From Pseudobdellovibrionaceae bacterium (GTDB taxonomy: Bacteria > Bdellovibrionota > Bdellovibrionia > Bdellovibrionales > Bdellovibrionaceae): DNA of 64,000 bases. How positions within the stretch are numbered: position 1 is the stretch's first letter; the number at the start of each line of letters is the position of its first letter. Positions 8,482-63,486 of the stretch are shown in pieces. The stretch covers positions 1 through 64,000 of the forward strand of contig JABWCN010000021.1 in assembly GCA_013359135.1 (NCBI GenBank). The letters are read 5' to 3'. A program made the position numbers and the translations under genes. The notes under the pieces were generated by a model, which did not search any database, had not been told where the DNA came from, and was given only the letters and a program-made list of their open reading frames with translations.

Positions 8482-9225
8482 ATGAACAAGGATATTTTAA
8501 AAAAACTAAATCACGAATCATTTTACTTTAAAACAATTCCCATTTATTTTTTAACTCTACTCAAAAATTACTTTCGTTTACAAATTGAAGGTCTAGAAAA
8601 TATTCCCAAAAAAGGGTCAGTATTGATTACTCCTAATCATTCTGGGTTTTCTGGAATTGATGCTTTACTACTTAACTATGTCTTAGTTAACGAAGCCAAA
8701 CGACTTCCTCGTGTATTAACTCATAAATTTTGGTTTGGTACTAAGATTTCATCTGCAATTTTTCAAAAGCTCGGTTTTTTTGAAGCGACCTATGAAAATG
8801 GTAAAGTTTATTTAAATAGAAAAAATGCTGTCGTTCTTTTCCCTGAAGGTGAACAGGGAAACTTTAAACCTAGCCAAAAAATGTATCAGTTGCAGGAATT
8901 TAAAAGAGGATTTGTCCGACTTGCTATCGAAACTGACTCCCCTATAGTTCCCGCTCTTATTATTGGAGCTGAAGAATCAAACTTTACCTTATCTCAATTA
9001 CACTTAAATCATTTTTTAAAAGGAATCACGCTTCCACTACCAATTAATCTAATCCCTCTCCCTGCAAAATGGAAAATTAAATTTCTAGATCCTATTTATC
9101 TTCCCTATGACAAATCTGCCCTTGAAAATACGGAACTGATACATGAAATTACCAGCGATATTGAAGATTTAATGCAAAGAAAAATAAACGAAGAGCTTAA
9201 AAAGAGATCTTCTGTATATTTTTAA
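8482..9225 (+). CDS. PlsC-family lysophospholipid acyltransferase
   Basis: A membrane-associated acyltransferase of the 1-acylglycerol-3-phosphate O-acyltransferase superfamily. Motif I is NHSGFSGID (around residues 52-60), with H and D spaced more widely than the classic HX4D. Motif III is FPEGEQGNF (around 120), with the FPEG signature. VPALIIGAEES fits the VP.. motif IV. About 247 residues is normal. It is divergent from glpK, which makes glycerol 3-phosphate, so a role in phospholipid synthesis or remodelling is plausible. The wider HxxxxxxD spacing suggests a side branch rather than canonical PlsC, so the acyl acceptor is uncertain. Its stop overlaps that of the convergent pilin-like gene. 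Confidence 0.84.
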   Translation: MNKDILKKLNHESFYFKTIPIYFLTLLKNYFRLQIEGLENIPKKGSVLITPNHSGFSGIDALLLNYVLVNEAKRLPRVLTHKFWFGTKISSAIFQKLGFFEATYENGKVYLNRKNAVVLFPEGEQGNFKPSQKMYQLQEFKRGFVRLAIETDSPIVPALIIGAEESNFTLSQLHLNHFLKGITLPLPINLIPLPAKWKIKFLDPIYLPYDKSALENTELIHEITSDIEDLMQRKINEELKKRSSVYF

Positions 9226-9467
9226 CGGCAATTTGGGTTGAAACAGGAATCAGCCTTATCATCACCCACAGATTTAATAATTGCAGACCAGCCTTTAATA
9301 ATCGCACCAGGCTCATCTGGATTACGGCTACCTAGTTTACTCACTACAATTGCAGCAACAATCGCCGCCATTGAAAGCAGTAAAACATACTCAACCACCA
9401 GCTGTCCCCGTTGATTAAAGCTCAAGATGATTTTCTTCCAACGAGGAAGAAAGCATTTTATTTTCAT
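9222..9467 (-). CDS. Small type IV pilin-like / Flp-like protein
   Basis: An 81-residue protein with a short basic leader and then G followed by QLVVE and a hydrophobic stretch (LLLSMAAIVAAIVV). A Gly before the cleavage point, Glu at +5 and the hydrophobic helix are the hallmarks of a type IV prepilin substrate. The small size and lack of a pilin head suggest the Flp/TadE class or a minor pseudopilin. A GGAAAG ribosome site seven bases upstream supports this start; an earlier ATG in frame would overlap the preceding gene more deeply. No prepilin peptidase or Tad genes are nearby. It overlaps the upstream gene by 53 bases. Confidence 0.72.
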   Translation of the reverse strand: MKIKCFLPRWKKIILSFNQRGQLVVEYVLLLSMAAIVAAIVVSKLGSRNPDEPGAIIKGWSAIIKSVGDDKADSCFNPNCR

Positions 9468-9852
9468 TGATTTCTTTCCAATTTTTAACTGCATCTTCAA
9501 ATAATATAAAAAAATCTGAAATATCAGCTTCATTGTTTGGTTTTTCAATTCCTATAACTATATCTTGATTCCAAAATTCCATTTGCATCGTAGAATCACT
9601 AGCAAAACAATACTCATATTGTTCTCGTGTGGGATAGACCATGATTAAAATATTAGAATGGGAGTTTTTGGAGGTTTCCTTTAGAGCTAATAATTCTTTT
9701 TTAAATTTTTGTTGAAGTTCAAAGTAAATCTTCAACGCAAATGACTCATGAAACTGAGCAAAATAAATTCTGACTGGGCCGTCGAAAATAGCCGAATTAA
9801 AAGCCACATTAAAATACTTTGACTGCATCACATTAGCATATGAATTTCTCAT
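9415..9852 (-). CDS. Hypothetical protein, upstream partner of the pilin-like gene
   Basis: I do not recognise it. It has 145 residues, no signal peptide and no membrane segment, with mixed alpha/beta composition and an acidic C-terminus. It resembles the globular part of pilus-associated proteins only in context. A strong GGAGGGG ribosome site precedes the ATG. The next gene starts inside its 3' end, so the pair is translationally coupled and probably acts together, perhaps in a pilus or secretion process. Two inverted repeats lie in the region upstream. Confidence 0.7.
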   Translation of the reverse strand: MRNSYANVMQSKYFNVAFNSAIFDGPVRIYFAQFHESFALKIYFELQQKFKKELLALKETSKNSHSNILIMVYPTREQYEYCFASDSTMQMEFWNQDIVIGIEKPNNEADISDFFILFEDAVKNWKEINENKMLSSSLEENHLEL

Positions 9853-9875
9853 TTGGAACCCCTCCGTAGGCCAAT

Positions 9876-9895
9876 CTTTAGTTCAGTCACTAAAG
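9876..9895. repeat. 7+7 inverted repeat in the leader of the pilin-like pair
   Basis: CTTTAGT and ACTAAAG separated by six bases, a short way upstream of the ribosome site of the hypothetical gene. On the gene's strand it would form a hairpin in the leader; as DNA it could be a second operator half next to the 18-bp palindrome. Confidence 0.35.
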
Positions 9896-9934
9896 AAAAA
9901 TCACAACAAGCTCTTCATGAAATTGTTATGACCA

Positions 9935-9952
9935 CTACCTAAGCTTAGGTAG
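9935..9952. promoter_or_regulatory. Perfect 18-bp palindrome, candidate operator
   Basis: CTACCTAAGCTTAGGTAG is self-complementary with no spacer. It lies about 83 bases before the start of the pilin-like pair and 40 bases after the hutI stop. No T-run follows on either strand, which argues against a terminator. A dimeric regulator's operator is the simplest reading. Confidence 0.5.
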
Positions 9953-9991
9953 ATTCCATTTTAAGAATCAAATCATTTTTTACAGTTTTTG

Positions 9992-11236
9992 TCAGAATTC
10001 TGCACTGTTTAATTTTTGAACTTTATTTTGAAAAAACCTTTCACTGATTGGGTTCTGAGTTGAAGAGTAAAAAAGATCAGAAGCATCTCCCTCAAGAATG
10101 GCTATTAGCGCTTTTTTCCCAACCTCTATAGATCCTAATTGATCTTGTAAATTCAAGGCATAACTTGCTCCCAAAGTGTAAGCGACAATGACTTCAGTTA
10201 AAGTCATCTTCATTTCTAACCTAGCCAAAAGGCCAACCATCATCACATCTTGAGATGGACAAGTTCCTGGATTAAAGTCTGAAGCTAAGGCAACCCTAGC
10301 TCCAGAATCAATAAGCTTTCTTGCTGGAGGATAAGCACAGCGCATGTACAAATCAGCAAGCGGTAATAACACTGGGGTCACCTCGGATTGAGATATTTTT
10401 TTAATTTCTTTTTCAGAAAGTTGAATGACATGGTCCGCGGATAGCGCACCTAACTCACAAGCTAGCTCACTACCGCCAGATAAGCTTATTTGATCAGCAT
10501 GAATGGTTATTTCAAAACCCAAACTCTGACAATGCTTTAAGTACTCGCGAGCCACATCTTTAGAGAAAAAACCTTTTTCAATAAAAATATCTACTCTTTG
10601 ACTGAGCTTTTTTTTCTTAACTTCTGGTAAAACTTTTAATTTAAGAAAATTCAAATATTCTTGTTCTGAAGAAAAACTCTTAGGAACCGCATGAGCTCCC
10701 AAAAACGTAGGAATAACTAGAGCGTTTTCAATTTGTTTTAAAATCTCCAATGACTTGATTTCATTTTTTAAATCTAAACCATAGCCACTTTTGATTTCAA
10801 CAACAGAAACACCTTGTTTCACAAACTGATTGACTCTCTTTTGAGTCAAATTCAATAGCTGAGCTTTAGAAATTAAATCAATTGCTTTTTGAGTTGATAG
10901 AATACCACCACCATTAGCAGAGATCTCTTGATAACTAGCTCCTTGCAAACGCATTTCAAACTCAGCACTCCGACTACCAGCAAAAACCGTATGCGTATGA
11001 CATTCGATCAGAGTAGGCATCAAAACTTTATTTTTTAGTGAGATCTCTTTCTTGATTTTCTTTTTAAAGTCCGAGGGTAATTTTTTTAGCTCACCTATCC
11101 AGCAAATTTTTTCTTTATCCACAATTAGAGAATGATTTTTTAAAACAGATAGATCTTCGTTCTTTATGCCACGCCCTTTTTTTAGAGCAGCCCCTTGTAG
11201 ACTTAAAATTTCTTTAGCATCTTTAAGTAGTATCAT
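9992..11236 (-). CDS. hutI: Imidazolonepropionase
   Basis: A zinc or iron amidohydrolase that opens 4-imidazolone-5-propionate to N-formimino-L-glutamate, the third step of histidine breakdown. ECHTHTVFAGSR carries the HxH metal motif, GHAD-type IHADQI supplies a further metal histidine, and ASDFNPGTCPS is the characteristic C-terminal stretch with the metal Asp. About 414 residues is normal. No hutH, hutU or hutG is present in the window, so the pathway is scattered, or the gene serves a salvage role. It appears to be a single-gene unit. Confidence 0.95.
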   Translation of the reverse strand: MILLKDAKEILSLQGAALKKGRGIKNEDLSVLKNHSLIVDKEKICWIGELKKLPSDFKKKIKKEISLKNKVLMPTLIECHTHTVFAGSRSAEFEMRLQGASYQEISANGGGILSTQKAIDLISKAQLLNLTQKRVNQFVKQGVSVVEIKSGYGLDLKNEIKSLEILKQIENALVIPTFLGAHAVPKSFSSEQEYLNFLKLKVLPEVKKKKLSQRVDIFIEKGFFSKDVAREYLKHCQSLGFEITIHADQISLSGGSELACELGALSADHVIQLSEKEIKKISQSEVTPVLLPLADLYMRCAYPPARKLIDSGARVALASDFNPGTCPSQDVMMVGLLARLEMKMTLTEVIVAYTLGASYALNLQDQLGSIEVGKKALIAILEGDASDLFYSSTQNPISERFFQNKVQKLNSAEF

Positions 11237-57664: not shown

Positions 57665-59545
57665 ATGAATAAAACTAACATTAGTGATTTTTTATCTTCC
57701 ATAAAAAAAAATAAAAATCAAATTTCTAAAGATACTTCAGCTTATATAGACGCTGATTTCTCTCGTTTCTTAACTTCCTCAAGACTTGCTTTGCATTGGA
57801 TCACCCTGAAGCCTCATTCAAAAACATCTTACCCTCATGCTGAAAGTCATGAGGAAGAATTTGTTTATGTTCACAAGGGCTATCCACACGCCTGGATAAA
57901 TGGATTCTTATATTCTTTACAGCCTGGTGACGCTCTCGGATTTCCTGCAGGAACAGGTATTGCTCATTGCTTGATAAACAACAGCCACGAAGAAATCGAA
58001 TTGATAGTCTTAGGAGAACTCTCAAAAAAAGAAAACAAATGCTCATTCCCTATTAATCCTGAATTAAAGTCAAAATATGAAAAGATTTGGTGGGGTGATT
58101 TTCCAGTTCAAAACTTTGGACCTCACAACGCAGAAATAGGAAATATTTCACACCAAAAAGATCGCTCTGAATGTCCTTTTCTATTAAATGTTTATCAAAT
58201 AAAAAGAAAAGCCAGTTATACATACCCTGGAGATAAAGAAAAATTCACCGAAGGACTTCGTCTATCTAACCTAATATCTTTAAAAACATTAGGGATTTGG
58301 CATGAGAAATTAATGCCAGGAAAAAGAACATCTTGGCCCCATGCTCATTTGAAAGAAGAAGAAGCTGCTATTATTCTGAAAGGATATCCCAAAGCCTGGA
58401 TAAATGGATATTTGATATCGCTCCAACCAGGAGATGGAATAGTTTTTAAAGCTGGCACAGGAATAGCTCATACTCTTATTAATGATTCTCAAGAAGAAAT
58501 AGAATTCATCGGAGTTGGAGAAATTAACGCTACCGATGATAAAGTATTCTATCCAATAAATGACAGTCGAAATGAACAATGCCAAGAAAGTGGCTTATTT
58601 TGGAAACCTAACTCAATTGCTTTTCCTCTTGGAAAGCAATCAGCCATTCCTAATGATCCAAATCTTGTAATTGAATCCGTAGATGAAGCAAAGACCTTTC
58701 TTTACTTAGCATCTTCTTATTTATATACAGAAGAAGCGACAAATAGTTTACTTATTGGACTTACTGAAATAAAGTTAAATCAAGCAAAAGATACTTATCA
58801 ATATTGGATTATTTACCTGAATTCAGTAGTTGTTGGAGCTGCAGTGATGACAGAGAAAAGCCTGCTCTTAACATCAATTCCAGCAACTTATTTGAAATCC
58901 TTGACAACAAAAGTTATAGAAAAAATTAAATTATTTAATAACTCTGATAAACTAAAGTTAGATGTTGTAGGCCCCAGTTTCACGGCAGAAGCTTTTTCAA
59001 GAGTTTGGTGTGAACTAAACCCAGATTATCAGTTTAACTTACTTATGGGACAAAAAATCTACAAGTTAACAACAGTGAAAAAACCTTCTTTAAAATTAGA
59101 AAAAAATTTCACTTTTAAAATTGCTGAGTCTAAAAATCAACAAATAGTTAGTGAGTTTCTATACAATTTTTGCAAAGAATCTTTACCAACAGAAGATAAT
59201 CGTATAGAAGATATTCAAAAAGTAGTTACAAAAAAAATAGAAAAAAAAGAAATTTTTATCTTAACAGATGAAAATGATTCTCCTGTTTCAATGAATTATG
59301 TTGGAAGAGCAACAAAAAATGGGATTAGCGTGAGTGGTGTTTACACGCCAAAAAAATGGAGAAAAAAAGGATTTGCATCTCACCTTGTCAGCCTGACTAG
59401 CCAATACATGCTAGACCAAGGGAAAAAATTTTGCGTTCTTTACACAGATATAGAAAACAAAACATCAAATAAAATATATCAAAATATAGGATATGAGCTG
59501 ATAGACACTTCAAAACATTTTAAAATTAAATTGATAGACACTTAA
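57665..59545 (+). CDS. Bicupin fused to a two-part GNAT acetyltransferase
   Basis: A 626-residue cytoplasmic fusion. Cupin one (about 30-130) has PHAESHEEEFVYVHKG, LQPGDALGFPAGTGIAHCL; cupin two (about 195-290) repeats the pattern with PHAHLKEEEAAIILKG and LQPGDGIVFKAGTGIAHTL. Cupin one has metal-ligand-like H, H and E and the closing H; cupin two is similar. After a degenerate GNAT-like part (about 320-460), a C-terminal GNAT (about 470-626) has GVYTPKKWRKKGFASHLV, the acetyl-CoA-binding R/Q-x-x-G-x-[GA] motif. Acetylation of a sugar or small molecule is possible; the substrate is unknown. Confidence 0.8.
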   Translation: MNKTNISDFLSSIKKNKNQISKDTSAYIDADFSRFLTSSRLALHWITLKPHSKTSYPHAESHEEEFVYVHKGYPHAWINGFLYSLQPGDALGFPAGTGIAHCLINNSHEEIELIVLGELSKKENKCSFPINPELKSKYEKIWWGDFPVQNFGPHNAEIGNISHQKDRSECPFLLNVYQIKRKASYTYPGDKEKFTEGLRLSNLISLKTLGIWHEKLMPGKRTSWPHAHLKEEEAAIILKGYPKAWINGYLISLQPGDGIVFKAGTGIAHTLINDSQEEIEFIGVGEINATDDKVFYPINDSRNEQCQESGLFWKPNSIAFPLGKQSAIPNDPNLVIESVDEAKTFLYLASSYLYTEEATNSLLIGLTEIKLNQAKDTYQYWIIYLNSVVVGAAVMTEKSLLLTSIPATYLKSLTTKVIEKIKLFNNSDKLKLDVVGPSFTAEAFSRVWCELNPDYQFNLLMGQKIYKLTTVKKPSLKLEKNFTFKIAESKNQQIVSEFLYNFCKESLPTEDNRIEDIQKVVTKKIEKKEIFILTDENDSPVSMNYVGRATKNGISVSGVYTPKKWRKKGFASHLVSLTSQYMLDQGKKFCVLYTDIENKTSNKIYQNIGYELIDTSKHFKIKLIDT

Positions 59546-59650: not shown

Positions 59651-60295
59651 CTATAACTTCCTTTCCAACAGGGCTTTATTTAAAAACTCTGGTCCATTTT
59701 CAAGAACATTATCACCATGACTTACAATAATTTTTTCAAAATTCCATAAAAATATTTTTTTAATGGATTGATTAAAAGCTAATCTATCACTAATAAATTT
59801 AACATAAAAGCGGCTGATAGCAAACTTATTGTATGTCCCAAAAATTTTTAAAATTAACCAACTTCCTATTCCTTTTGGATTTTTAATATTAAAACATAAA
59901 TCTGTAACTATCAAAGATCGACTTGATTTATCATAAAAGACTACTTCATTCACTTTGGGCATACCTTCGATTAACAAAATAGGAAGTTGTTCATTAAACT
60001 CCCAGGGATCTTCTCCTAAGATTTTGTCCCAAAATATATCTGGCTTAACCTCTTTGACTCCTTTTATACCCCAAACTCTAGCATTTGGAAAAAATCTCTT
60101 CGCTTTTGCAATTCCACCGCAGTGAAATAAATTAGGAGCAACTAAGTCAGTAACTTCACCCATTTTTTGATAATTTTCTGCAGTTAGTTGTGATCCCGGA
60201 GAAATAAGGATTTTTTTTGACATAACTTCAAGCAAAATTGATCTTACCGGCAAAACCATAAAAGGCATTTTTAATTGCGTTTCAAAGAACATCAT
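59651..60295 (-). CDS. DUF4336 / metallo-beta-lactamase-like protein
   Basis: A 214-residue protein. PNLFHCGGIAKAKRFFPNARVWGI and the later IIVSHGDNVLENG resemble the two metal-binding regions of the metallo-beta-lactamase fold (H-x-x and H-G-D), and the layout matches DUF4336. GAGGTG five bases before the ATG supports this start; a GTG 30 codons earlier is in frame without a ribosome site. No nuclease or lactamase signature is complete, so catalytic activity is uncertain. Confidence 0.75.
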   Translation of the reverse strand: MMFFETQLKMPFMVLPVRSILLEVMSKKILISPGSQLTAENYQKMGEVTDLVAPNLFHCGGIAKAKRFFPNARVWGIKGVKEVKPDIFWDKILGEDPWEFNEQLPILLIEGMPKVNEVVFYDKSSRSLIVTDLCFNIKNPKGIGSWLILKIFGTYNKFAISRFYVKFISDRLAFNQSIKKIFLWNFEKIIVSHGDNVLENGPEFLNKALLERKL

Positions 60296-60461
60296 TATTT
60301 CACCTCTAAAAAAATAATAAGTAAAAATAGTTTTAGTGTCATTTGCTAAATTAATAAAATTTTTTATCGGGTAATTATTAATCACAAGCTTCTGAAAAGA
60401 TCTCTATTTACTGAAAATAAAAATTAAGAAACATTAATAATAGTTTCTAAATTTATAACCC

Positions 60462-60501: not shown

Positions 60502-60528
60502 GACAGTTTAATTAAAAATTAAACTGTC
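60502..60528. repeat. Perfect 12+12 inverted repeat just before the CheA-like gene
   Basis: GACAGTTTAATT and AATTAAACTGTC around a 3-base loop, ending 13 bases before the ATG. In RNA it would form a strong hairpin close to the ribosome site and could block translation; as DNA it is a perfect operator-like dyad. Confidence 0.7.
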
Positions 60529-60541
60529 GATAAAGATACTA

Positions 60542-62212
60542 ATGATAAAAAGAAAAATCATTCATATAGACGACTCAATGATCGTAAGGAAAACCGTTAA
60601 AAATCAACTTTCGTCTCTTGATTATGTTGAACTTATCTCTTGTGATTCTTTCTTTCAATTACAAGAAATTCTTAGTATTGAAGAAACTATAGATCTGATT
60701 ATTACAGATCTAAATATGCCTAATAACTCCGGTTACGAAATTCTAGAGTGGATTAAAACCAATCCTGACTATCATTTTATACCAACTATTGTATTAACTG
60801 CTGAAAGTAGCACTGAAAAACAAAATTTAGCAAAAAAAAGAGGGGCTTCCCAAGTTCTTATAAAGCCCTATCTAGCTCAAGACTTAATAACAGCTATTCA
60901 AAGGCACTTTGCTGAGATTAATAAAAAACAATTAAAAGAAATAGACAATTCTTTTATACAAAACTCTCTAATACTAATTGAAGAAATATTAGATATTTTT
61001 GAAAATAAAAATGACCACTTAGCAGAAGTTGTTTTACAAAAATTGCATCAATTAAAGGGTGACGCTCTATCTAGTCAATGGCCTATTATTGCATACTTTA
61101 TTCATGATTTCGAAGACGTATGGAAGTTTTGTTTAAAAAATCAAAGTATCAACAACAAACAACTTTTTGATGTCACAATTGATGGTATAGTTACTGTTCA
61201 CCGTATGTTGCTTGACTTAAAAATAAAAAAATCTCACCGTTTACCACAAAATGATTTTTACAACGAATTTATACAAATTAAAAAAAATGTTGAAAAAGGT
61301 TGGATAAATAACTTATCGTTAAAAAAAACTATTTCCTCATCCCATGAATCTACATCTAATAAGGAAAATACTGAAATTGATTCTAATCAAAAAGTTAAAT
61401 CTATTTTAGAAAATAGTGACTTCATTAGAATGCAAAGAAATAAGCTGGATGAACTCTATAGCCAAGTAAAAAAAATTTCTCAAATTAAAACACGTATGAA
61501 TATATTTATAAGCAGACTAAAAAATGAAATGAGTGACGAACCATTTATTGAAGAACTAGCACAAATGAACCAAGAACTTGCTCGCGAATCACAGTCTTTG
61601 ACTGAGTTCTTCTTATTGATGAGGACTAAGGAACTTCGATATCTACTTGAAACCTTCAAAGCAACAACAAAAAAAACCGCCGAACTACTTGGAAAAACAG
61701 TTGAAACCATCATTTCTGCTGATGAAAATATACCAATTGACACTATTGTTTTGTCTAAAATGGAAGCTATTCTTGGACACCTAATAAGGAATTCTCTTGA
61801 TCATGGTATTGAAACTGATTCTGTAAGAAGCGAAAAAGGAAAAGTTCGCAATGGAACAATTTCTTTAGACGTTTCCTTAAAAAAGCAGATGATACAAACT
61901 GATGATATGCTTCAATTTAAATTAAAAGATGATGGCTCTGGTATTGATATAGAAAAAATTAAAAATAAAGTCAAAAAACTTGGACTAATGTCAGAAGAAC
62001 AACTTAAAGATTTACCCGATAAAAGCGTCATTATGATGATTTTCTTAGATTCAATAAGCACAAAGGAAGAAGTCTCAATAGTATCGGGAAGAGGCGTCGG
62101 TATGTCGTTCATAAAAAAAGAAGTTGAGAACCTTCAAGGTACAGTATCTGTCGAAACAGGCCCATGGGGAACTTGTTTCGAAATCTTAGTTCCCAGATAT
62201 TATAAACTTTAA
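60542..62212 (+). CDS. REC-Hpt-CheA-like histidine kinase without a CheW domain
   Basis: A cytoplasmic two-component protein. REC domain (1-122) with acidic pocket DD (10-11), phospho-Asp D56 in ITDLNMP, and KPY. An Hpt part (about 135-220) has H169 in KLHQLKGDA, like CheA P1. A helical dimerisation part follows, then a CheA-type HATPase (about 390-556): HLIRNSLDHGIE (N-box), DDGSGID (G1), GRGVGMSFIKKEVENLQG (G2). It ends after the kinase, with no CheW-like P5 domain, so it does not couple to chemoreceptors by the usual route. It heads an operon with a CheY-like and a STAS-CheX protein. Confidence 0.88.
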   Translation: MIKRKIIHIDDSMIVRKTVKNQLSSLDYVELISCDSFFQLQEILSIEETIDLIITDLNMPNNSGYEILEWIKTNPDYHFIPTIVLTAESSTEKQNLAKKRGASQVLIKPYLAQDLITAIQRHFAEINKKQLKEIDNSFIQNSLILIEEILDIFENKNDHLAEVVLQKLHQLKGDALSSQWPIIAYFIHDFEDVWKFCLKNQSINNKQLFDVTIDGIVTVHRMLLDLKIKKSHRLPQNDFYNEFIQIKKNVEKGWINNLSLKKTISSSHESTSNKENTEIDSNQKVKSILENSDFIRMQRNKLDELYSQVKKISQIKTRMNIFISRLKNEMSDEPFIEELAQMNQELARESQSLTEFFLLMRTKELRYLLETFKATTKKTAELLGKTVETIISADENIPIDTIVLSKMEAILGHLIRNSLDHGIETDSVRSEKGKVRNGTISLDVSLKKQMIQTDDMLQFKLKDDGSGIDIEKIKNKVKKLGLMSEEQLKDLPDKSVIMMIFLDSISTKEEVSIVSGRGVGMSFIKKEVENLQGTVSVETGPWGTCFEILVPRYYKL

Positions 62213-62225
62213 AACAGGGATTGTA

Positions 62226-62639
62226 ATGCGCGTTTTAATTGTAGACGATTCAGCACAAATACGTTTAGTTATTCAAAGATATATTTCTACCCTTAATAGT
62301 ATGAGTTTCGATTTTTTTCACGCAGAAAATGGTAACAAAGCAAAACAAGTACTACAAGAAAATGAATTATTCTCAAAACCTATTGATTTAATATTCCTTG
62401 ATTGGCACATGCCAGAAATGAACGGATTGAGTTTTTTATCAGATATCAGAAGTGTGGATAAGTTTAAAACCTATCCACCCATCATTATGCTAAGTGCTGA
62501 GACCTATCCACAGCAAATTGAAGCATGTCTGAAATACGGTGTTTCTTCATATCTAACAAAACCTTTTACTGAGGAACAGATACATGAGGCTCTAAAAAAA
62601 GTAATTCATCAATTAAATGGAGTTGGACATGCCATTTGA
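62226..62639 (+). CDS. CheY-like response regulator
   Basis: A single receiver domain of 137 residues. VDDS holds the metal-binding Asp pair (D7, D8), FLDWHMPEMNG the phospho-Asp D59, LSAE the Thr/Ser switch position and LTKPF the Lys. No output domain. It starts 13 bases after the CheA-like gene and is the likely phosphate acceptor. The next gene overlaps its end and carries a CheX-type phosphatase domain that should remove the phosphate. Confidence 0.93.
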   Translation: MRVLIVDDSAQIRLVIQRYISTLNSMSFDFFHAENGNKAKQVLQENELFSKPIDLIFLDWHMPEMNGLSFLSDIRSVDKFKTYPPIIMLSAETYPQQIEACLKYGVSSYLTKPFTEEQIHEALKKVIHQLNGVGHAI

Positions 62640-63486
62640 ATTTCTACCTCAAAATGATTATTTAATAATTAATTTAACAGCAGAGTGTTCAGGTGATGAG
62701 GTTCCCTCGTTGACTGAAACATTTCAAAAGAAAAATTCAGAGAAGCAAATTAAGTATATTATTTTTCAATCTGCACAATGTTCTCATATGTCTGTAGGGT
62801 TTATGAGAGAAATTTCTCAGATTTACAAAGCTCTAAAAACTACTAACGGTGGTTTAAGACTTGTCGGATCGACAGAAAAAGTTTTAGCTTTAATAAAAGC
62901 TCAAGGTTTAGATCAAATTTTGGTTAATAAAATGAGCTTACGTGGTGCACTTGTAGAGTTTGGATTAGCCAAAGAAAAACAAATTGATGTTAACTTTATA
63001 AATCCATTTTTAATGGCAACTCAAAAAGTTTTTAAAATTCAATGTTTTCTAGAAACTACATCACAAAAACCTTTTTTGAAAAAAAGCTCTGATCCACTTC
63101 TTTTTGGCGATATCAGTGGCATTATTTCTATCTCTTCTGAGTCATTTAATGGAACTTTAGCTATTAGCCTAACAGAAAAGATATTTTGTAAAATTGGATC
63201 TAATATGCTGGGAGAGTCCATAACAAGTATTAATGAAGGAAATATTGATCTCGTTGGAGAACTTGCAAATATGATTTTGGGACAAGCTAAGCTAGAATTA
63301 AGAAAGGTTGGTTATGCTATGCAAATGGCTATTCCCTCATGCATTTGGGGCAAAGACCATAAAATCAAACATTATGGTGGAGGCGCTTGTGTTGTTATCC
63401 CATTTGAAACTTCCGAAGGAATTTTTTACACAGAGATAATGACAGAACCCATATCCCAATTACAAAATACAGCTAAATCCTCCTAA
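62629..63486 (+). CDS. STAS domain fused to a CheX-like phosphatase
   Basis: A 285-residue fusion. Residues about 1-110 follow the STAS fold (YIIFQSAQCSHMSVGFMREISQIYKAL as a strand, turn and helix), though the phosphorylatable Ser/Thr position is weak. Residues about 120-280 match CheX/CheC: a first strand region, then LVGELANMILGQAKLEL, where E-x-x-N is the phosphatase motif, and AIPSC. TGGAG before this ATG at normal spacing supports it; the ATG four codons earlier is possible. It overlaps the CheY-like gene by 11 bases and is its likely phosphatase. Confidence 0.85.
   Translation: MPFEFLPQNDYLIINLTAECSGDEVPSLTETFQKKNSEKQIKYIIFQSAQCSHMSVGFMREISQIYKALKTTNGGLRLVGSTEKVLALIKAQGLDQILVNKMSLRGALVEFGLAKEKQIDVNFINPFLMATQKVFKIQCFLETTSQKPFLKKSSDPLLFGDISGIISISSESFNGTLAISLTEKIFCKIGSNMLGESITSINEGNIDLVGELANMILGQAKLELRKVGYAMQMAIPSCIWGKDHKIKHYGGGACVVIPFETSEGIFYTEIMTEPISQLQNTAKSS

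Follow-up and report, generated by a model that had tools for sequence, protein, structure and literature searches.

Three adjacent genes of a Pseudobdellovibrionaceae bacterium, encoding a CheA-type kinase, a CheY-like target, and a CheY-P phosphatase, probably constitute a self-contained, array-independent phospho-signaling module, a reading that we hold with moderate confidence. The parts of this trio are known and their combination is apparently unreported, since no publications on STAS-CheX or P5-less CheA were found in the literature search. Such a trio would represent a compact three-protein system for CheA-core control without receptor arrays, suggesting that the chemotaxis kinase core is able to run as a small stand-alone loop, and it also bears on the role of STAS when fused to a phosphatase. 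The host belongs to the Bdellovibrionota, a phylum that includes predatory bacteria. Hereafter, the window refers to the whole stretch of DNA analyzed (64,000 nucleotides).

Gene organization and conservation

The module comprises the following genes:

60542..62212, + strand: CheA-type kinase gene without P5, 556 aa (ORF, Pfam, alignment, and model)
62226..62639, + strand: CheY-like single-domain response regulator gene, 137 aa (ORF, Pfam, and alignment)
62617..63486, + strand: STAS-CheX gene, 289 aa (ORF, Pfam, alignment, and model)

The genes and coordinates proposed by the initial annotation proved exact to the base in the ORF check, with the three genes co-directional, a 13-base gap between kinase and response regulator, and a 23-base overlap between response regulator and STAS-CheX. 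The upstream neighbor of the kinase (59651-60385) is divergent, and the gene located 3' of STAS-CheX begins after 128 bases. At 57665-59545, the translation of a 626-aa protein, as judged by eye, reads as a pair of cupin-like repeats with an acetyltransferase-like half behind them.

A search of 369 Bdellovibrionota genomes identified kinase orthologues of the same length in ten further genomes, and at all ten loci the order, strand, and tight spacing were those of the window, with flanking genes varying by locus. Because order, strand, and near-contact are equal in ten other genomes, the trio is more than a chance association, and its earlier description as one unit was borne out. Divergence was uneven, identity being 53-60% for STAS-CheX, 41-51% for the response regulator, and 22-30% for the kinase (22-32% in the search of the 369 genomes). 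Moreover, in a scan of 84,980 species, at least five module contigs, from Bdellovibrionales, Oligoflexia, and Bacteriovoracaceae MAGs, were among the matches listed, and it is on these listed matches that a confinement of the module to Bdellovibrionota is based.

The module-type STAS-CheX clade was restricted to 13 of the 369 genomes, being delimited in the profile search by a score gap from 449 to 252 bits below the clade. These carriers were distributed among the family of the window (one genome) and families f12 (one), f22 (six), and f26 (five), a patchy spread that suggests loss or transfer. The full kinase was present in 11/13 carriers. In G348 (L266, 5834-7255) the P4 is kept and REC, Hpt, and the H-x-x-K-G motif are not recognizable, and in G355 the response regulator and STAS-CheX are present with no adjacent kinase; on account of these two genomes, the kinase is the part of the trio that varies most. 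A fourth gene, encoding a single-domain receiver, follows STAS-CheX in two modules (L222, 9028-9405; L223, 4684-5082).

Among 100 near relatives, STAS-CheX-like fusions (~30% identity) were common and often located beside a CheY-like gene, mostly without the module kinase. STAS-CheX proteins of the same genus (32% identity) were rejected as orthologues, falling outside the module clade with no kinase alongside. In L048, L051, and L052, CheX lies behind a receiver-like N-terminus, not STAS, with REC detected in L048 and the other two recognized by sequence.

Domain architecture of the kinase

The kinase of the window was divided as follows:

aa 1-125: REC, with D10, D11, D56, T86, and K108
aa 128-227: Hpt, with H169
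aa 228-298: low-confidence linker without P2 (AlphaFold model)
aa 299-361: P3-like helical hairpin (AlphaFold model)
aa 362-551: CheA-type HATPase/P4

Pfam recognized Response_reg (5.4e-18) and HATPase_c (2.3e-11) in this protein, confirming that the kinase carries its own receiver, and gave Hpt a value of 0.1, below cut-off. The Hpt domain is real despite this sub-threshold score, because Hpt exceeded the Pfam cut-off in 10/10 orthologues scanned and His169, within the H-x-x-K-G motif, was unchanged across the 11 kinases aligned. The REC active-site residues are intact in 10/11 kinases and partly lost in L232, where the site is degenerate. As for P3 (H-kinase_dim), there was no Pfam detection in the window kinase, where the hairpin is visible in the AlphaFold model; among orthologues, it was above the Pfam cut-off in L147 and L230 (23.2 and 24.9 bits vs 23) and sub-threshold in L142. 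The P4 of the aligned kinases keeps the N and G boxes (N417, D463-x-G-x-G, and GRGxG). In addition, the AlphaFold model (mean pLDDT 77) has as its top structural matches the CheA P3-P4 structures 3ja6 and 4xiv, and its last element is the P4 strand ending at 551.

No CheW/P5 was found in the window kinase at Pfam E<=1, only 5 residues separate the end of the HATPase from the C-terminus in this protein and its orthologues, and P5 was missing from all 11 module kinases by Pfam and alignment. Pfam, the AlphaFold model, and the orthologue alignment thus agree with the earlier proposal of a kinase without a CheW-like domain, and a hidden CheW was not found. Furthermore, no CheW gene was found on the contig of the window (C42), CheW matches in the same genome being confined to contigs C50, C55, C68, and C78; on the last of these (~8869-10173; L004, L006, and L008), a 513-aa open frame has three CheW matches in a row.

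The misfit with a chemoreceptor array that had been suggested for this kinase is in keeping with its having neither P5 nor a CheW gene on its contig. An unlikely reading would still place the kinase in a chemosensory array, with CheW/P5 supplied in trans, the trio serving as an accessory branch and CheX damping the CheY-P of the main CheA. The genome encodes ordinary CheW and CheA on other contigs, plus flagella, and in the relatives L090-L092 and L104 the response regulator and STAS-CheX lie beside a CheA cluster, as this reading would expect; however, it has to face the 11/11 module kinases lacking P5, the contig devoid of CheW, and flanking genes that change between loci.

The response regulator and the STAS-CheX protein

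The response regulator (Response_reg, 1.3e-23) has an intact receiver site in the window copy, formed by D7, D8, D59, S90, Y109, and K112. In the alignment, its orthologues keep D7, D8, D59, T/S90, and K112, and Y109 is likewise invariant. FliM is encoded in the same genome.

The third protein, in which Pfam identified CheX (4.2e-20) and STAS (1.5e-6), consists of two halves:

aa 1-118: STAS half (Pfam and structure match)
aa 122-278: CheX half, with catalytic E215-x-x-N218

In the model of this protein (mean pLDDT 90.5), the CheX half matches 3iic, 3h2d, and 6vpw, with TM of 0.92-0.95 over the domain, and E215 and N218 are invariant in 13 module STAS-CheX proteins. CheX is known to insert an Asn and an acidic residue into the response regulator active site; in CheX/CheC, the corresponding Asn serves to orient the attacking water, and contact with the receiver lysine is made by the acidic residue (PMC3035606).

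The STAS half matches SpoIIAA (1tid/1th8; E 2e-8, TM 0.87). At the SpoIIAA phospho-serine position, the residues in 11 module proteins are V, G, T, S, S, S, G, G, P, G, and T, so that the canonical phospho-serine (the Ser that follows an Asp where helix 2 begins) is not conserved among them, and a classical STAS switch is unlikely as judged from these sequences. Of the coupling between phosphatase and STAS switch proposed in the initial annotation, the phosphatase part is in keeping with the intact CheX catalytic residues, whereas the switch part loses ground with the unconserved serine.

Sigma-factor control involves the binding of STAS domains to GHKL kinases, and together with the SpoIIAA-like fold this would fit STAS as the output, an RsbV/SpoIIAA-like partner-switch having an anti-sigma factor as its target and CheX as a docking module. 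We consider this very unlikely, given that a conserved acceptor is lacking at the phospho-serine position in the 11 module proteins, that neighboring genes are not constant, and that the CheX catalytic motif is invariant.

C55, C143, C242, C258, W244, H248, and H252 are invariant in the module STAS-CheX clade (13 orthologues). The cysteines may have redox, metal, or packing roles; for a Cys/His metal site composed of C242, H248, H252, and C258, the strand register in the model suggests that C242 would lie far from C258.

Upstream region and link to motility

Two features precede the kinase gene:

60502..60528, no strand assigned: perfect 27-base inverted repeat GACAGTTTAATT-AAA-AATTAAACTGTC, separated from the kinase start by 13 bases
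60508..60533, + strand: putative sigma-28-like promoter TTAATTAA-N10-GTCGATAA, at a place that matches stronger sites in orthologous operons

The palindrome, overlapped by the sigma-28-like site, was unique in the whole genome, even allowing up to 3 mismatches, and had no counterpart in front of the orthologous kinase genes; it is possibly an operator or a 5' leader hairpin.

The sigma-28 (FliA) consensus is TAAAGTTT-N11-GCCGATAA, and GCCGATAA-like motifs are present before module kinases. The 11 module upstream regions scored 24, 22, 21, 21, 20, 20, 19, 19, 18, 18, and 15, higher than 149 further genes located on these contigs (mean 15.6), with a Mann-Whitney p of about 1e-6 that is optimistic, because the GCCGATAA-like motif had been noticed in the module upstream regions before the test and some of the operons are closely related to one another. 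Of 300 scrambled consensuses, none reached the module mean score, and 8/11 operons have a strong putative FliA-like promoter. In the window itself the site is weak (score 18, shuffle p=0.147). Regarding flagellin genes, 7/30 in the carrier genomes had a sigma-28 score of at least 19, and no strong site was found at the two scanned flagellin genes of the window genome, where the count of the exact sigma-28 pattern was also not above control (8 vs 20). Since the site of the window is weak and its own flagellin genes are without a strong one, the link to motility rests on the relatives.

FliA and flagellins are encoded in 13/13 carriers. Based on the FliA-type promoters, the CheY-like residues, and the flagellated carriers, we infer that the phosphorylated response regulator most likely acts on motility. 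A further possibility, to which we give a small chance, is that the module would feed c-di-GMP turnover, not the flagellar motor directly. In this regard, a ~450-aa gene with a C-terminal HD-GYP-type (HD_5/HD) domain was found beside the response regulator and/or STAS-CheX genes in L053, L058, L146, L150, L153, and L279, an arrangement akin to the module that occurs more often in the phylum, and in many relatives (L053, L058, L150, L153, and L279) both genes flank it. By contrast, neither the window nor the ten orthologous modules have a constant neighbor of that size pattern, as judged by gene size.

Proposed mechanism

In the working that we infer for the module, every catalytic step and the motility output are predictions, whereas the architecture of the trio, its recurrence in relatives, and the enrichment of sigma-28-like sites are observations. 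The P4 of a P3-dimerized kinase would phosphorylate its own Hpt at His169, and the phosphoryl group would pass to Asp59 of the response regulator, as operon linkage and intact residues suggest. The CheX half, as predicted by its motif and fold, would insert E215/N218 into the site of the response regulator, removing the phosphate and setting the lifetime of the signal. The STAS half would serve for docking or ligand binding, positioning or tuning the phosphatase, with no serine-phosphorylated switch. Lastly, the N-terminal REC would be either an input filled by another kinase, as in CheS3, or a drain for Hpt phosphate. The Che3 system of Rhodospirillum centenum offers a working precedent, where REC1 of the hybrid kinase CheS3 receives its phosphate from a different kinase and not from CheS3 itself, and the hybrid kinase phosphorylates a lone CheY (PMC3868531). 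The closed loop initially proposed is unproven, since the N-terminal REC offers an entry point for another kinase.

A purely internal role of this REC, as a phosphate sink or autoregulator, would instead turn the trio into a closed loop, timer-like and independent of any outside kinase. We regard this as doubtful, even considering that the REC residues are intact in 10/11 kinases and that RECs attached to CheA commonly serve as sinks (PMC10542144). Indeed, 93% of genomes with a single REC-bearing CheA are without a dedicated phosphatase (PMC10542144), whereas the module has one; moreover, L232 keeps the module though its REC active site is lost, and CheS3 gives an example of a REC filled from outside (PMC3868531).

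Origin of the kinase

In a P3-P4 tree, with midpoint root only and long branches, the module kinases formed a single clade (97/91) that lay outside the sampled CheAs with P5, the phylum's REC-first CheAs among them. Tree tests rejected neither grouping with REC-first CheAs (p-AU 0.18) nor a single origin for all CheW-less kinases (p-AU 0.585), and a scenario in which REC-first CheAs gave rise to the module kinase by losing P5 was neither shown nor rejected. It is improbable, in our judgment, that the CheW-less Hpt-P3-P4 kinases of Bdellovibrionota, module included, form a separate lineage that diverged before CheA gained CheW; if true, the module would be a living relative of the pre-array chemotaxis-kinase ancestor, rather than a CheA with P5 lost.

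Comparison with known systems

CheW-less Hpt-HATPase kinases with PAS or cNMP-binding domains are present elsewhere in the phylum, and therefore the absence of CheW is not unique to the module. Close parallels are L093, L054, and L096, which likewise have no CheW, a CheA-like HATPase, and clustered REC and CheX genes, but whose kinases begin with PAS (over cut-off in L093) or an unrecognized N-terminus, not REC. In addition, the L054 operon has a FIST gene, and the L093 and L096 kinases fall on a separate tree branch from the module kinases. In light of these kinases, of the STAS-CheX/CheY-like pairs common in relatives, and of the standard parts involved, the term novel regulatory system used in the initial annotation is too strong.

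The module shares the CheX fold and E-x2-N motif with CheX of Borrelia/Thermotoga and the CheX-like proteins of Shewanella/Vibrio (3h2d, 3iic, and 6vpw), but its CheX sits behind STAS and has the clade-specific invariants C55, C143, C242, C258, W244, and H252. Similarly, the N-terminal 118 residues have the STAS fold of SpoIIAA/RsbV-type proteins, from which they differ in the unconserved canonical phospho-serine and in the fusion to a phosphatase. Che3 of R. centenum (CheS3, CheA3, and CheY3) resembles the module in combining a REC-bearing hybrid kinase with a single-domain CheY; unlike the module, CheS3 is built on a kinase core of the HWE type along with PAS and REC domains and works next to a full Che cluster, and the available portion of the source describes no STAS-CheX (PMC3868531).

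With CheA, the module kinase shares the Hpt with H-x-x-K-G, the P3-like hairpin, and the CheA-type HATPase (4xiv/3ja6), and REC is sometimes attached in CheA as well; it differs in the absence of CheW/P5, in its N-terminal REC, and in having no CheW gene nearby. Thus, it is not CheA by definition, yet it is of the CheA kind. According to Berry, Andrianova and Zhulin (PMC10542144), 100% of the CheAs surveyed carry CheW, and P3 always occurs with CheW; that set was gathered with a CheA classifier and hence may have left out CheW-less proteins. Conserved CheA-type kinases with P3 minus CheW, each accompanied by a CheY-like target and a CheX phosphatase, depart from this description of CheW as ever-present.
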